From Candidatus Cloacimonadota bacterium (GTDB taxonomy: Bacteria; Cloacimonadota; Cloacimonadia; Cloacimonadales; Cloacimonadaceae), in assembly GCA_012519465.1 (NCBI GenBank), contig JAAYQD010000269.1, positions 1 to 10,571 on the forward strand: 10,571 bases of DNA, given 5' to 3'. The number at the start of each line of letters is the position of its first letter. Position 1 is the first letter of the stretch. The notes beneath the pieces were generated by a model. That model was given only the letters and a program-made list of their open reading frames with translations, was not told the origin of the DNA and did not search any database. The position numbers and the translations under genes are program-made. This document shows, in pieces, positions 472-5,086 of the stretch.

Positions 472-828
472 ATGAACAAGGCATTTATTAGATTGGCAGT
501 TACCGCACTGCTGCTGCTCTTGGCTTTTGGCTTGTTTGCCAAGGAGTTGAGCGTGGTGGATGGTGTGGATATCAAACCTAATCCCATGGACAGGCGTTGT
601 GAGATATTCATACGTCTCAACGGCAGTGCAAATTTGGGCGTGAATATAGAAGATGACCGGGGCAACGTGATAAAAACCCTATACTGGGGCCCTGCCCAAA
701 AGGAATTGGTCCTGGCTTGGGATCGTATGTCAGACAATGGCGAGTATGTGCCCAGCGGCAAATATGTGTTGGTGCTCAATTACGATGCGCGCTACACCTC
801 GCTGAAAAAGACACTCATTTTGAAATAA
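472..828 (+). CDS. Small exported protein with FlgD-type Ig-like fold
   Basis: The product is 118 residues. I chose the ATG at 472 because an AGAGGAG ribosome-binding site lies just upstream (459-465) and the protein then begins with a classic signal peptide: MNK, a Leu-rich hydrophobic stretch (residues 6-22) and a likely cleavage after LFA (residue 23). An in-frame start at 358 would put over 35 untypical residues before the signal. Residues about 40-115 resemble the FlgD Ig-like domain: IEDDRGNVIKTL is followed by WDRMSDNGEYVPSGKYVLVL, matching the W-D-G-x-(D/N)-x-G-x-x-x-x-(S/A)-G-x-Y pattern of that family. In this superphylum such domains usually end large secreted proteins; here the domain stands alone with only a signal peptide. 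It is probably periplasmic or surface-located. No enzymatic residues are visible and its function is unknown. It ends 16 bases before the MlaE-type gene. Confidence 0.8.
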   Translation: MNKAFIRLAVTALLLLLAFGLFAKELSVVDGVDIKPNPMDRRCEIFIRLNGSANLGVNIEDDRGNVIKTLYWGPAQKELVLAWDRMSDNGEYVPSGKYVLVLNYDARYTSLKKTLILK

Positions 829-844
829 TCAAATCCTCGTTCTT

Positions 845-1609
845 ATGACAAGATCGAAACAAAGAAAGTCCTTTGCGGACTTTTTTTGCTTTATCCTGGA
901 TATTCTGCCCCGGTTGTTGCGGCCTTTTGGCAAGGACAGGATATCATGGACGGTATTAACGCGGCAGATACTGTATACTGGTTTTGAGGCTTTGCCGCTG
1001 ATTGGCTTTATTGCCCTGGCCATGGGCGGGCTCATTATCCTGCAGGGGAATATACTGCTTAGCACCTTTGGGCAGGGGATTTGGCTGTATCATATCTTGG
1101 TTACTCTGGTAATCAGCGAGCTGAGTGGATTGATTACCGCCTTGGTGGTGATCGCCCGCAGCGGCACCGCAATCTCCACCGAGCTGGGCAATATGAAGGT
1201 AAATCAGGAGATAGCACTCCTTGAATCATTTGGCATCTCCCCCACCACCTATTTGGTGGTTTCGCGTATCTGGGGTGTGGTGATTTCCACGGTGGTGCTC
1301 AGTTTCTATTTCAATATAATCGCCGTATTGGGCGGATGGCTGTTTGCCACGATCTTCTATCCGCTGGGGTTTCGTTCTTTCATCAGCAATCTGGTGGGAG
1401 TACTGGGGTATCAGCATGTGGCAATGGCTTTTCTGAAATCCCTGGTGTTTGGATTTTTGATTTCCGTGATTGCCTGCTTCCAAGGTCTCAGCGTAAAAAG
1501 CGCCAGCACCGAAGTACCACAAAGAACCATCAAAGCGGTGGTGAGCGGAATAGCCTGGGTGATAGTGGCAGATATCATCATCACATGGTTGTTTTGGATG
1601 TTGGCATGA
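845..1609 (+). CDS. mlaE: MlaE-family ABC transporter permease (phospholipid/MCE transport)
   Basis: The product is 254 residues, close to the usual 255-265 of MlaE. It is an inner-membrane permease that, as a dimer, passes lipids between the membrane and a periplasmic MCE ring. The family core is clear: hydrophobic segments at about 47-70, 79-104, 144-170, 195-212 and 232-252, and the conserved cytoplasmic coupling region IARSGTAISTELGNMKVNQ followed by EIALLESFGISP (103-133), equivalent to the AGRxGSAxxAExGxMxxxEQxxxxExMxxDP region of known MlaE proteins. The usual Gly-Pro after the conserved Glu is Ser-Gly here (residues 94-95). The start is uncertain. ATG 845 has no recognisable ribosome-binding site and an intrinsic-terminator-like hairpin covers codons 6-15. 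The next in-frame ATG (1022, residue 60) would delete the first membrane segment, so only TTG 914 or 917 are plausible alternatives. The stop overlaps the next gene's start (ATGA, 1606-1609). Confidence 0.9.
   Translation: MTRSKQRKSFADFFCFILDILPRLLRPFGKDRISWTVLTRQILYTGFEALPLIGFIALAMGGLIILQGNILLSTFGQGIWLYHILVTLVISELSGLITALVVIARSGTAISTELGNMKVNQEIALLESFGISPTTYLVVSRIWGVVISTVVLSFYFNIIAVLGGWLFATIFYPLGFRSFISNLVGVLGYQHVAMAFLKSLVFGFLISVIACFQGLSVKSASTEVPQRTIKAVVSGIAWVIVADIIITWLFWMLA
861..887 (+). terminator. Intrinsic-terminator-shaped hairpin overlapping the mlaE start region
   Basis: AAAGTCC (865-871), a five-base loop TTTGC and GGACTTT (877-883) form a perfect 7-bp stem. It runs straight into a T tract (881-887) and is preceded by a purine-rich A tract (861-867) that extends the pairing to about 11 bp with one G-T wobble. 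This is the textbook shape of a rho-independent terminator, placed 32 bases after the stop codon of the FlgD-like gene. The odd point is that it also lies within codons 6-15 of the MlaE-type gene as called from ATG 845. It could terminate the upstream unit, attenuate mlaE, or show that mlaE really starts downstream. Confidence 0.6.
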
Positions 1610-2223
1610 AGATAGAATTGATTGATCTGTATACTGATGATGGGTTGGAAGGGCTCAATCTCAGCTTTGGTTTGCATGGGGTAAGTCTGCTTTTGGATCC
1701 TCAGGAGCTGATGAGTGGATCAATCCTGCGGGCATTGGCGGGGCTGAACAAAACTTTGGCGGGAAAGATTCTGATCGATGGAATGCCAATAGATGAATAC
1801 AGAATCGGGAGCGATTGGCACCACAATTTTGGCTATATCTTTGCGGAGGGGATCATGTTAGCCAATCTTAGCCTTAGTGAGAATATCTTTTTGCCCCTGC
1901 GCTGGCGTACACCCAGCATTTCGCAAGCAGAATGTGACAAGCTTGCCGCACCGTGGCTGCAGCTCTTTGGCGTGGATATGGATCTAAATATCCGTCCTGC
2001 AGACGTCAAGCCCTCCATTCTCAAATTCTTGAGCTATACACGCAGCCTGATCCTAAAACCCAAATACCTGCTGATAGATAGTCCCTATTATCAGTTGAAC
2101 AAAATGGAACGCAAGATTATGTTTGATGCGCTTTCCCAGCTGCGTAAAACTCATAAAATGCTGATTGCCAGTTCTGATGATGACTTCGCCGGGGGCTTTA
2201 GCGATGAACTGGTGGAGCTTTAG
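1606..2223 (+). CDS. MlaF-like ABC ATPase homologue with all catalytic motifs altered (probable pseudo-ATPase)
   Basis: The product is 205 residues, shorter than canonical MlaF (about 250-270), and starts at the ATG of an ATGA overlap with mlaE, which implies translational coupling. The ABC fold is recognisable: a strand and helix ending LRALAGL (41-47) after the Walker A position, GYIF-x-EG with NLSLSENIFLPLRW (76-100) at the Q-loop, and YTRSLILKPKYLLIDSP (144-160) leading into Walker B. Each functional residue is nevertheless replaced in my by-eye alignment: Walker A GxSGSGKST is DPQELMSGS (31-39, Ser37 for Lys); the Q-loop Gln is Ala80; signature LSGG is about VKPS (134-137); the catalytic Glu after Walker B Asp158 is Ser159; the D-loop SGLD ends QLN (163-165); the H-loop His is Ser190. 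The frame is intact from start to stop, so this is not simple decay. I infer a structural or regulatory partner of MlaE that cannot hydrolyse ATP itself. Confidence 0.85.
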   Translation: MKIELIDLYTDDGLEGLNLSFGLHGVSLLLDPQELMSGSILRALAGLNKTLAGKILIDGMPIDEYRIGSDWHHNFGYIFAEGIMLANLSLSENIFLPLRWRTPSISQAECDKLAAPWLQLFGVDMDLNIRPADVKPSILKFLSYTRSLILKPKYLLIDSPYYQLNKMERKIMFDALSQLRKTHKMLIASSDDDFAGGFSDELVEL

Positions 2224-2389: not shown

Positions 2390-3475
2390 ATGAGTTATAA
2401 GACTAAACGCAGTAAACAGATAGTACTGGTATTTGTGGCGTTGCCGCTGGTGCTGGTACTTGTTGTGTTCGCATTGATTGCGATCCGGCAGCGTCTCTTT
2501 GAACAGAAGTTTCTGTTTTACACCAACCTGCAAAATGCGGTGGGGCTTTCCGATCAGACACCTGTATTATACAAAGGCTTTGAGATAGGCAGGGTGAGCG
2601 GCTTTCACCTCACAGAAACAGGCATCATCAAAGTGGAAATGAAGATCCTGAAGCGATATCGCACAATAATGGTGGCAAATTCTGTAATCTCCCGTACCAC
2701 AAATCCCATTATGAACAAAACCACCCTGGAATATCTGCGTGGACCCAAGGAGGAAAAGCCTCTGGCAGATGGTGCCTTTATCCCTTCCACAGATTTTGCC
2801 ACAGGCAGAGGCATCATGCAGGCTTTGGGGCAGGCAGGCTCTGACCCCATAGGCGGCATTTTGGACAATGTGGGCACCTTGGCATCTGAATTGACCGGCA
2901 GCCCGCAAGACAAAGGCTCGTTGGTGCAAACCATGGAGAACATTGCCAAAGCCAGTGAACATGCGGAAGCCTTGATGGAAAGCACAACGATAACCCTGCA
3001 TGAAATCAGCAAACTGATGGAAAACCTGAATGAGGATAATAGCGCCAATTCCGGTGTATTGGTGCGCACTATCCACAGCCTGGCTGCGCTTACTGAAAAC
3101 CTGAACCAGCAGATGGGAACGGTATCCGCTCTCTTGAGCAGCAGCCAGACCCTGATGCAAAACTATGCTCATCCCGATAGCCTGATAGTGCGGATGCTTG
3201 ATCCCAGTGGTGAAACGATAATGGCTCCCTTGAAAAGCATCTTGGAGGCTTTGGCGGCAAATTTGGAAGCCAGCCACAATCTTTTGCAAGGCTTTAATGC
3301 CGCATCACCCCAGATCGCCTCTCTCTTGGGCGGATTGGATGATTCCTTAGCTGATGCACAGCGCTCCTTAAGGCTTTTGAGCAACCATCCCCTCTTCAAT
3401 ATGGGGGCGCAAGGCACTGAATATGAGCCCGCCATGCCTTTGGACAGAATGGGAGAATTGCCACATGCGCAATAG
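2390..3475 (+). CDS. mlaD: MlaD-like MCE-domain lipid-transport protein
   Basis: The product is 361 residues. A short basic N terminus (KTKRSKQ) is followed by one membrane anchor (about 11-33) and a single MCE domain (about 40-118), recognisable from FYTNLQNAVGLSDQTPVLYKGFEIGRVSGF (described in parts: N-x-x-G-L at 49-53, V-L-Y-K-G at 59-63, I-G-x-V at 66-69) and the closing TTLEYLRG strand (111-118). The remaining two thirds is long amphipathic helix with heptad-like leucines, ending in the family-typical SLRLLSNHPLF (326-336). MCE proteins form hexameric rings in the periplasm that bind lipid delivered to or from MlaE. The extended helical tail resembles MCE proteins that build a tunnel or needle, rather than the short E. 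coli MlaD. The ribosome-binding site is poor (AATGGGA, 2372-2378). The gene's last 11 bases overlap the lipoprotein gene. Confidence 0.88.
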   Translation: MSYKTKRSKQIVLVFVALPLVLVLVVFALIAIRQRLFEQKFLFYTNLQNAVGLSDQTPVLYKGFEIGRVSGFHLTETGIIKVEMKILKRYRTIMVANSVISRTTNPIMNKTTLEYLRGPKEEKPLADGAFIPSTDFATGRGIMQALGQAGSDPIGGILDNVGTLASELTGSPQDKGSLVQTMENIAKASEHAEALMESTTITLHEISKLMENLNEDNSANSGVLVRTIHSLAALTENLNQQMGTVSALLSSSQTLMQNYAHPDSLIVRMLDPSGETIMAPLKSILEALAANLEASHNLLQGFNAASPQIASLLGGLDDSLADAQRSLRLLSNHPLFNMGAQGTEYEPAMPLDRMGELPHAQ

Positions 3476-4325
3476 CCTGATCATCCTTATATCCCTATTC
3501 TTTCTGGCGTGCTCCTGGTCTCCCAAACCGCAGCAACCCCTGGAGAAAGACAATGCCGACCGCAGCCTGAAAAGCGCAGGCTTGTATTTGGCAAGTGATC
3601 CCGCCAGAGCGGTGGAAATGTATGAACACAGCCGCCAGAGATATCGCCGTATGGCTGATGTGGAAGGGGAATTGTGGAGCCTCTTTGGAATTGCCCAGGC
3701 TGCTGTGAGGATGCAAGACGCCGCAACTTTGGATGCCACCAAGGAAGAGATGCGGATGATTGTCCGCAACGTGGCTCCGCAGATGGATCATATCCCGCTA
3801 TATCTGGATATGTTGATCTTGTTTAACGCCGGGGAATATGAGCAAATACCGGCTTTGACTATGGATAACTCCCAATGGCCAGACACGGCAAGGCTGCGGA
3901 TAGCTGCCCTTGCTTTGCAAGCAGAGGCGTTTATGAACAAAGGCAATCGTGATCGACAAAAGCTGGTGCAGCGCCTCCTCCGTTCCCAAAAGAAACAATT
4001 GCATCGCAAAGGTGCCACACAGGCGCTCACCGTTGCCAAAGGGCATTATGCATTGGCTTATTATTATGTATCCAGAAGAGAGTATGCCAATGCCTTAAAA
4101 CACATTAAAAATGCAAAAGAACTGGATTGGCTGTATGAGGATTTTGAAGCCCTGGGCTATGATTATTGGCTGCAGGGGCAGATACTGTATAAACAAGGCA
4201 AGATGGCCACTGCAAAAGCAAACCTCATCAAAGCCATCACAATATTTGAATCAACAGATAACAACGCCATGAAAACGAAGATTGAGGCGGAATTATCATC
4301 TCTGGATCAAGGAGAAGAATTATGA
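3465..4325 (+). CDS. TPR-containing lipoprotein in the MCE operon
   Basis: The product is 286 residues. I chose the ATG at 3465 because GGGAG (3451-3455) precedes it at good spacing and the protein then starts with a lipoprotein signal, MRNSLIILISLFFLAC, with the lipidated Cys at residue 16. The residues before Cys (F-L-A) are slightly off the ideal L-A-G/A lipobox. The mature part is almost wholly helical with at least two clear tetratricopeptide units, about 192-225 (AKGHYALAYYYVSRREYANA then LKHIKNAKELD) and about 232-265 (DYWLQGQILYKQGKMATAKA onward), and weaker ones before. TPR units bind proteins. Because this gene starts inside mlaD and its stop overlaps the fabI start (ATGA, 4322-4325), the lipoprotein is probably made with the MCE protein. 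It may serve as an outer-membrane or inner-membrane-anchored docking partner of the lipid transporter; that role is inferred from position only. Confidence 0.8.
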   Translation: MRNSLIILISLFFLACSWSPKPQQPLEKDNADRSLKSAGLYLASDPARAVEMYEHSRQRYRRMADVEGELWSLFGIAQAAVRMQDAATLDATKEEMRMIVRNVAPQMDHIPLYLDMLILFNAGEYEQIPALTMDNSQWPDTARLRIAALALQAEAFMNKGNRDRQKLVQRLLRSQKKQLHRKGATQALTVAKGHYALAYYYVSRREYANALKHIKNAKELDWLYEDFEALGYDYWLQGQILYKQGKMATAKANLIKAITIFESTDNNAMKTKIEAELSSLDQGEEL

Positions 4326-5086
4326 ATCTTAAAGGAAAACGTGCCCTTGTTTTGGGCATAGCAAACCAGTATTCCATTGCCCATGGAATAGCCAAGGCAC
4401 TCTCTGAAAACGGCTGTGAGATGATCTTCAGCTATGCAGGACCCAAGCTTGCCCGGCGGGTGCAGCCAATAGCTGATGCATTGGGAGCCAAAATGTGTGT
4501 GGAATGCGATCTCTCGAACGACTTTGCCATCCAAAAACTAATGGAAAGCGTGCGCAGCGTGTGGGATGGAATCGATATAATAGTGCATTCCGAAGCCTAT
4601 GCCCCCATTGAGGAGCTGAACAAGGCATATCACCACACCACCCGACAGGGATTCCACATAGCGATGGATATCAGCGTATACTCTCTGGTAGCGGTATTGC
4701 GGGAGGCAGAAGGATTGTTACAAGAAGGAGCATCCGTCATCACCCTCACCTATTATGGGGCTGAAAAGGTGGTGCCCAATTATGGGGTGATGGGCGTTGC
4801 CAAAGCCGCCTTGGAGGCTTCCGTGCGCTATTTGGCATTCAGCATGGGAGAACACAGCGTGCGCATAAACGCCATTTCTGCAGGGCCCATGAAGACGCTT
4901 TCCACGGCACGGATATCCGGTGTATCTCAGATCCAAAGACGCATTGAAAAATCCGCCCCTCTGGGACGCAACATCAATAGTGAGGATATCGGAAAGACTG
5001 CCCTTTATCTATTATCAGACCTGGCTTCCGGGGTCACCGGCGAGGTGATTTATGTGGATGCCGGCATGAATATCATGGCATATTAG
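4322..5086 (+). CDS. fabI: Enoyl-[acyl-carrier-protein] reductase (NADH), FabI type
   Basis: The product is 254 residues, within the 250-265 of FabI, an atypical short-chain dehydrogenase that performs the last reduction of each fatty-acid elongation cycle in the cytoplasm. Diagnostic features are: the FabI nucleotide loop GIANQYSIAHGIA (12-24), VHS at 88-90, TYYGAEKVVPNYGVMGVAKA (143-162) with Tyr144, catalytic Tyr154 and Lys161 in the FabI Y-x6-K spacing, and ISAGPMKTL (185-193). Two substitutions are unusual for the family as I know it: Glu91 where Ile or Val is usual (HSIAFA), and Gly155 in place of the Asn after the catalytic Tyr (NYNVMG). The start overlaps the lipoprotein stop, with GGAG at 4310-4313 as ribosome-binding site. 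The next gene follows after 10 bases. Position in an MCE-lipoprotein operon ties acyl-chain synthesis to lipid transport. Confidence 0.88.
   Translation: MNLKGKRALVLGIANQYSIAHGIAKALSENGCEMIFSYAGPKLARRVQPIADALGAKMCVECDLSNDFAIQKLMESVRSVWDGIDIIVHSEAYAPIEELNKAYHHTTRQGFHIAMDISVYSLVAVLREAEGLLQEGASVITLTYYGAEKVVPNYGVMGVAKAALEASVRYLAFSMGEHSVRINAISAGPMKTLSTARISGVSQIQRRIEKSAPLGRNINSEDIGKTALYLLSDLASGVTGEVIYVDAGMNIMAY

Follow-up and report, generated by a model that had tools for sequence, protein, structure and literature searches.

What does an MCE transport system do with an MlaF-like ABC subunit whose catalytic motifs have been lost, and is such a subunit still in service? The window, by which we mean the whole stretch of 10,571 nucleotides analysed here from a Candidatus Cloacimonadota bacterium, raises this question in a row of genes that all lie on the plus strand:

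472..828, plus strand: small FlgD-Ig-like, probably secreted protein that precedes MlaE3 in f1, the family of the window (start placed by eye inside the ORF 358-828)
845..1609, plus strand: MlaE3, a divergent MlaE permease paralogue of 254 aa (PF02405, E 2.7e-56)
1606..2223, plus strand: pMlaF, an MlaF-like ABC subunit of 205 aa with a degenerate nucleotide site (PF00005, E 3.9e-4, below the cut-off; fold; motif alignment)
2390..3475, plus strand: MlaD3, a protein of 361 aa with a TM helix, an MCE domain and a long helical tail (PF02470, E 2.1e-8)
3423..4325, plus strand: TPR protein, conserved downstream of MlaD3; by eye its N-terminus resembles that of a lipoprotein (TPR_12 just below the cut-off)
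4322..5086, plus strand: FabI, enoyl-ACP reductase, part of this gene row; common in f1, though not present throughout

The pMlaF frame (1606-2223) runs without an internal stop, and its start overlaps the MlaE3 stop in the ATGA at 1606-1609. The predicted model of pMlaF matches solved ABC domains, MlaF included, over residues 1-205, revealing an ABC NBD fold and placing no Walker A, Walker B or signature elsewhere in the protein. The two best Foldseek matches of the model are chains of the mycobacterial Mce1 complex, and the best sequence match among solved structures is MceG (PDB 8fed; phmmer 1.6e-10). Alignment with 35 canonical MlaF of related genomes located the former nucleotide site as follows:

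1696..1722, plus strand: Walker A equivalent, pMlaF residues 31-39, DPQELMSGS versus GPSGCGKTT in canonical MlaF; Lys replaced by Ser37
1831..1899, plus strand: Q-loop and groove, residues 76-98, the expected seat of the MlaE coupling helix; Gln replaced by Ala80
2005..2016, plus strand: signature equivalent, residues 134-137, VKPS (V134-K135-P136-S137) versus LSGG
2077..2082, plus strand: Walker B Asp158, retained, followed by Ser159 in place of the catalytic Glu
2173..2184, plus strand: H-loop position, with Ser190 in place of His; the acidic D191-D193 come next

The D-loop SGLD is also gone. A sequence-only reading of this DNA had described an intact, MlaE-coupled MlaF gene with lost catalytic motifs, and the open frame, the overlap with MlaE3 and the motif alignment bear this out, as the alignment does each position it named (37, 80, 134-137, 159, 190 and the D-loop). 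Its wording that every nucleotide-handling motif had been replaced goes too far in one respect: Lys, Gln, signature, catalytic Glu and H-loop His are replaced, whereas Walker B Asp158 is retained. The same five features separate pMlaF from the MlaF of Mla (PDB 6xbd, 7ch7, 7cha), and its 205 aa compare with 263 residues in the 6xbd chain.

Motif decay reaches beyond the window, to six families of the phylum, and the loss is graded. We scored 38 pMlaF encoded next to MlaE3; G035, with a run of N inside pMlaF, was left out, and G069, where the contig ends, has no readable pMlaF. The 35 MlaF rows for comparison were selected because they resemble the canonical MlaF that this genome encodes, and all motif residues are present in 35/35. 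None of the 38 pMlaF carries the full set, so the canonical-motif orthologue that the sequence-only reading had named as a counterexample did not appear; nor did its other counterexample, intact Walker motifs at another place in the protein. The signature SGG and the H-loop His are each absent from all 38. The Walker A Lys is missing in f1 (0/23), f13 (0/6) and f10 (0/2) and present in f6 (1/1), f7 (2/2) and f9 (4/4); the Q-loop Gln is found in 0/23 of f1, 1/4 of f9 and 11/11 of the remaining families; the Walker B Asp in 21/23 of f1, 0/2 of f7, 0/6 of f13 and 7/7 of the rest; and the catalytic Glu in f10 (2/2) and f9 (3/4), with 0/32 elsewhere. The least degenerate pMlaF are thus those of f9, with Walker A retained and the catalytic Glu in 3/4, but without signature and H-loop His. 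Of the residues that mark an active ABC ATPase, Walker A Lys, signature, catalytic Glu and H-loop His are all four replaced in 23/23 f1 rows, the window included. The simplest history suggested by this pattern is that signature and switch His were lost first, which would have ended hydrolysis, and that the nucleotide-binding parts decayed later and separately. Nucleotide binding may persist where the Walker A Lys (f6, f7 and f9, 7/7) or the catalytic Glu (f10 and most of f9, 5/6) is kept.

The losses also recur in P0002, a protein of a different data set that shares 95% identity with pMlaF; this recurrence, together with that in relatives, places them beyond chance. A decaying pseudogene, frameshift, sequencing error or misassembly might be suspected from several motifs gone from one protein and from an assembly fragmented into 406 contigs. 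However, open-frame orthologues with like losses in many genomes, P0002 and dN/dS values well below 1 speak against such an origin, and conservation across six families leaves it a negligible probability. Exceptions to clean loci are the run of N in the pMlaF of G035 and a split MlaE3 in G090.

Two local patterns were noted within the graded loss. The six f13 genomes (L171-L176) have Walker B 'DE' changed to 'NK' (NKPLFNLD) in 6/6 and Walker A in forms such as 'GSYGYYNG', a different form of motif loss, and an equally fixed one. The former ATP pocket of f1 (1696-2184 in the window, residues 31-193) averages 6.5 acidic and 0.9 basic residues over 15 positions, a net charge of -5.6 in 23 rows. 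The corresponding values are -2.0 in canonical MlaF, +1.0 in f13, +0.5 in f7 and -1.5 to -2.0 in the remaining families. Among the acidic residues of f1, D191 has a top-residue frequency of 1.00 (23/23), D158 of 0.91 and D31 of 0.87.

Selection was estimated by the Nei-Gojobori method. In f13, from which the unsaturated values come, pMlaF gives dN/dS of 0.078-0.150 (six pairs with dS <1 among eight listed of 15), compared with 0.038-0.055 for canonical MlaF (three pairs with dS <1 of six); in the three genome pairs measured for both, the pMlaF ratio is 1.7 to 2.8 times that of canonical MlaF. In f1, dS is 2.6 or, more often, saturated, and the window compared with its congener G001 gives a dN/dS of 0.13 at a dS of 2.6, near saturation. 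pMlaF is therefore constrained, though less than canonical MlaF. These ratios, with losses that repeat across the 38 pMlaF, agree with the purifying selection and consistent motif loss for which the sequence-only reading had proposed to look in orthologues.

Conservation along the protein is uneven. In ABC transporters the groove beside the Q-loop is the seat for the coupling helix of the permease, and here its residues (76-98) have a mean top-residue frequency of 0.84 in 23 f1 rows and 0.83 in 35 canonical rows. The f1 Walker A equivalent (0.54) and signature equivalent (0.43) compare with a protein mean of 0.57, and canonical MlaF shows 0.94, 0.97 and 0.75, respectively, a rough comparison as the two sets differ in breadth. 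The f1 Walker B and H-loop regions stand at 0.78-0.79 with new residues, for example 'DDPYYLLNK' and 'ASxDDDF'.

A search of 60 related genomes with pMlaF returned matches of E 2.7e-30 or better in 20, all of them in f1 (20 of its 36 genomes, own genome counted); G035 matched with its gene split into two pieces (near 1e-15), and outside f1 no match was better than 3.0e-20. A search with an alignment of the permease found the MlaE3 type in 40/124 genomes of the phylum, with a wide gap between the last (3.3e-77) and the next match (4.8e-46). By family these are f1 25/49, f9 4/40, f13 6/17, f10 2/4, f7 2/2, f6 1/2 and others 0/10. The gene that follows MlaE3 is MlaF-like in 39/40; in the fortieth (G069) the gene row stops with the contig. 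Where related proteins carry an organism name, it is Candidatus Cloacimonadota or Cloacimonetes. A wide protein search with the pMlaF alignment A3 gave 671 proteins, of which we considered the best 120; this search needs shared 5-residue words, so kin beyond the phylum are possible. Among the matches listed, P0020-P0138 (119 ids), seven deviate at at least two of five motif positions: P0020, P0021, P0022 and the fragment P0024 resemble the pMlaF family, and P0023, P0106 and P0113 have lost other motif combinations. Scanning genome contigs with the pMlaF of the window yielded two weak matches of 22-25% identity, in records titled Proteobacteria and Deltaproteobacteria. The MlaE3 protein search gave 1069 matches among 7999 scored candidates; in the best 120, mostly nameless, the organism names were Cloacimonadota (or Cloacimonetes, Cloacimonadaceae) and one digester metagenome.

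In a tree with 28 of the 39 pMlaF, one branch (99/100) sets pMlaF apart from canonical MlaF and from ten further ABC proteins that this genome encodes; the branches are long, and the bootstrap had not settled. pMlaF and canonical MlaF form separate supported groups, and their deep placement depends on the long branches. The permease tree agrees, with MlaE3 on one side at an SH-aLRT of 99 (a quick tree of 22 of the 40 MlaE3). A single origin of pMlaF is likely, though unproven because of the long branches and unsettled bootstrap.

The permease has changed along with its partner. MlaE3 belongs to the MlaE permease family, PF02405 covering positions 2-212 of 212, and two of its segments would face the NBD:

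1154..1219, plus strand: MlaE3 coupling-helix segment, residues about 104-125
1517..1531, plus strand: MlaE3 PQRTI loop (TM4-TM5), at the site of GAEGVG in MlaE1/MlaE2; cytosolic by published MlaE topology

Published MlaE topology places the coupling helix between TM2 and TM3 and a periplasmic helix between TM3 and TM4 (PMC7790496), and on this description the TM4-TM5 loop is cytosolic. All 41 MlaE1/MlaE2 rows of the phylum carry GAEGVG in this loop, and the MlaE3 of the window has TEVPQRTI instead. The pattern PQ.TI occurs there in 39/40 MlaE3, the sole miss being G090, whose gene is split over two ORFs and was scored on the first piece. The coupling helix is the second NBD-facing difference, for example 'ARSGTAISTELGNM' in MlaE3 versus 'GRSGSAIASEIATM' in MlaE1. 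The coupling region that had been called preserved is so in part: the coupling-helix segment is kept, with clade-specific changes, but the TM4-TM5 loop is replaced.

MlaE3 and pMlaF adjoin in 39/39 loci, including 12 without MlaD3 alongside. Their distance is -28 to +46 bases in 38/39 loci (window included) and 193 at the split-permease locus; gene starts in these neighbourhood tables are mechanical first-start choices, which may overstate overlaps. Canonical MlaF is encoded in the same genome as well (C268), so the proposed search for a second copy was positive. A further paralogue, MlaE2 (249 aa; L118, G000:C304, 1503-2252, plus strand), retains the GAEGVG loop and follows, on a 10.3-kb contig, a gene that by eye resembles a replicative helicase. 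No ATPase gene was found beside MlaE2 in the stretches examined, including this contig. MlaE2 may borrow canonical MlaF; its GAEGVG would be expected in that case, and MlaE3 lacks it.

The third member, MlaD3, is identified as an MCE protein by the PF02470 match and by its model, in which a helix (3-37) is followed by strands (40-116), with block pLDDT of 80-93 from residue 41; the MCE part is confident, and the helical tail is of low confidence (mean pLDDT 65). With an MlaE permease and an MCE protein as neighbours, pMlaF has the genetic coupling typical of the MlaF family. MlaD3 comes next after pMlaF in 27/39 loci, the window included. Of the 12 genomes without adjoining MlaD3, 11 have it elsewhere (E 2.4e-100 or better) and G001, which is 82% complete, has none. 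Four congeners that lack MlaE3 also lack a full MlaD3; among these, G004 has a 55-residue piece at a contig edge. A genome thus usually has MlaE3, pMlaF and MlaD3 together, and at the loci without MlaD3 alongside, pMlaF still adjoins MlaE3.

Several observations concern the wider surroundings. FabI follows the MCE genes of f1 at full length in 9/14 loci readable past the TPR gene (window counted), as short pieces in G027 and G030 (L106 4826-5044; L107 4652-4978) and not at all in G006, G026 and G060; a link of fatty-acid synthesis with the MlaE3 transporter is possible. At L196 (G000:C340, 1998-6024, plus strand) another MlaD-like gene is directly followed by one for a protein of 1048 aa that combines peptidase MA, PD40 beta-propeller and Omp85 domains, an unusual MCE neighbour. 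AsmA-type (PF05170) lipid carriers matched in 29/121 phylum genomes, with a single f1 case (G011); their absence is uninformative on MlaE3 because f1 members with and without MlaE3 alike lack a PF05170 match.

We consider it probable that pMlaF is a conserved pseudo-ATPase, present as a pair under an MlaE3 dimer, and that MlaE3, pMlaF, MlaD3 and the TPR protein constitute an MCE lipid conduit, passive or otherwise driven. pMlaF would retain the ABC fold and the presumed coupling-helix surface, with the hydrolysis machinery apparently gone in every lineage scored and, in f1, nucleotide binding probably lost too. Two pMlaF would most likely dock under the MlaE3 dimer and keep the permease, together with an MlaD3 hexamer, either fixed or gated slowly. 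Flow through such a conduit may be passive, or powered by something besides its own ATP hydrolysis, and its direction would most simply be from the inner to the outer membrane. Of the three options in the sequence-only reading, a transporter that runs without ATP hydrolysis appears to fit best; regulation by the pseudo-subunit is possible but less likely, and the pairing of one active with one dead half is disfavoured, as no composite site would be complete and GAEGVG is lost.

Reports on Mla bear on this conduit from both sides. Lipid is reported to pass from MlaD to MlaC independently of ATP, and ATP hydrolysis is said to prevent this (PMC10212509); if hydrolysis blocks this flow, a hydrolysis-free core would have a plausible passive mode. 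The same source describes full Mla transport as mainly ATP-dependent and retrograde, with a passive step that uses MlaC. Acinetobacter MlaF is reported to require its Walker A Lys, of which f1 pMlaF has none, the mutant being inactive and dominant-negative (PMC6365058). A dead MlaF thus fails in normal Mla, and the MlaE3-pMlaF system must differ or act otherwise.

Against the conduit, the canonical MlaF of the same genome could itself serve MlaE3. Each ATP site of an NBD pair is built from Walker A/B of one half and the signature of the other; a pair of f1 pMlaF and canonical MlaF would complete neither, because Walker A Lys, catalytic Glu and signature are gone from pMlaF. An asymmetric active ATPase made of one pMlaF and one canonical MlaF under MlaE3 is therefore quite improbable, the more so as the loop common to MlaE1 and MlaE2 is gone in MlaE3, even though asymmetric pairs with one degenerate site are known in other ABC exporters (PMC7756269) and MlaE2, with no nearby ATPase gene, suggests that canonical MlaF can be shared. 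The dominant-negative Acinetobacter mutant and the mycobacterial Mce1N, which is reported to displace the NBD from its permease (PMC10517005), lend some plausibility to a natural regulatory subunit that competes with the coexisting canonical MlaF for permeases and so tunes canonical Mla systems. A pure competitor, however, needs neither MlaE3 nor MlaD3, and pMlaF adjoins its own permease at every locus, one with a clade-specific NBD-facing loop where MlaE1/MlaE2 keep GAEGVG in 41/41 rows; we regard this role as unlikely.

It is likewise unlikely, on present evidence, that the former ATP site works as a switch that senses something else and gates the permease without hydrolysis. The acidic cluster of f1 (net -5.6 versus -2.0 in canonical MlaF, with D191, D158 and D31 strongly conserved) could be a binding site for a metal ion or for a basic partner, and the Walker A Lys retained in f6, f7 and f9 would suit a bound, unhydrolysed nucleotide elsewhere. 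Yet the cluster is absent in f13, f7 and the remaining families, its acidity could merely fill an empty site, and the ligand is putative. A bolder form of the conduit reading is possible and is offered tentatively: an 'ABC transporter without engine', a third class of MCE transporter, in which a single loss of hydrolysis (signature, H-loop) at the base of the MlaE3 clade would have been followed by separate losses of binding in f1, f13 and f10. The result would be a passive conduit carrying phospholipid outward between the two membranes, and in f1 a new, conserved acidic site would have taken the place of bound ATP.

Known systems share parts of this arrangement. PqiABC and LetAB/YebST use the unrelated PqiA/LetA membrane proteins; the MlaE3 system instead keeps the ABC architecture with a presumably dead NBD. 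Both are MCE lipid systems of E. coli without MlaE/MlaF, in the case of PqiABC according to a published abstract. MceG, like pMlaF, is the NBD of an MCE transporter and its best match in sequence and Foldseek searches, but YrbE1A/B-MceG is reported to hydrolyse ATP and MceG to be common to Mce systems (PMC10517005), whereas pMlaF has degenerate motifs and goes with a single permease. The long-MlaD system described for Veillonella parvula has MlaE, MlaF and a long MlaD without MlaA and MlaC (PMC10665443); its MlaD has a beta-barrel, and the MlaD3 model shows none, with a tail of low confidence. TM287/288, ABCC1, Pdr5 and Pdr11 resemble pMlaF in having decayed NBD motifs in a protein still under selection, but are described as keeping one complete composite site (PMC7756269, PMC5602531), and a pMlaF homodimer would have none. 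In the open-access literature we found no description of an Mla system whose MlaF is degenerate, or of an MCE system that conserves a dead NBD, and no paper on Cloacimonadota and MCE, Cloacimonadota and the Mla ABC transporter, or a pseudo-ATPase ABC NBD. Within that literature, a conserved dead NBD in an MCE system would be new relative to asymmetric pairs with one good site and to ABC-free MCE systems.

ABC transporters are defined by ATP-driven NBDs, and the degenerate cases described keep one working site (PMC7756269, PMC5602531). If our reading is correct, the pMlaF family, spread across many genera and supplying the sole NBD gene next to the permease without a complete site, would indicate that an NBD can persist purely as a structure or gate. 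This bears on which way phospholipid moves between the inner and outer membranes and on what powers it, and a natural hydrolysis-free version would make the idea of passive flow (PMC10212509) directly testable. These bacteria would then be a natural experiment: can a core of the Mla type, working without ATP, provide the outer membrane with lipid?
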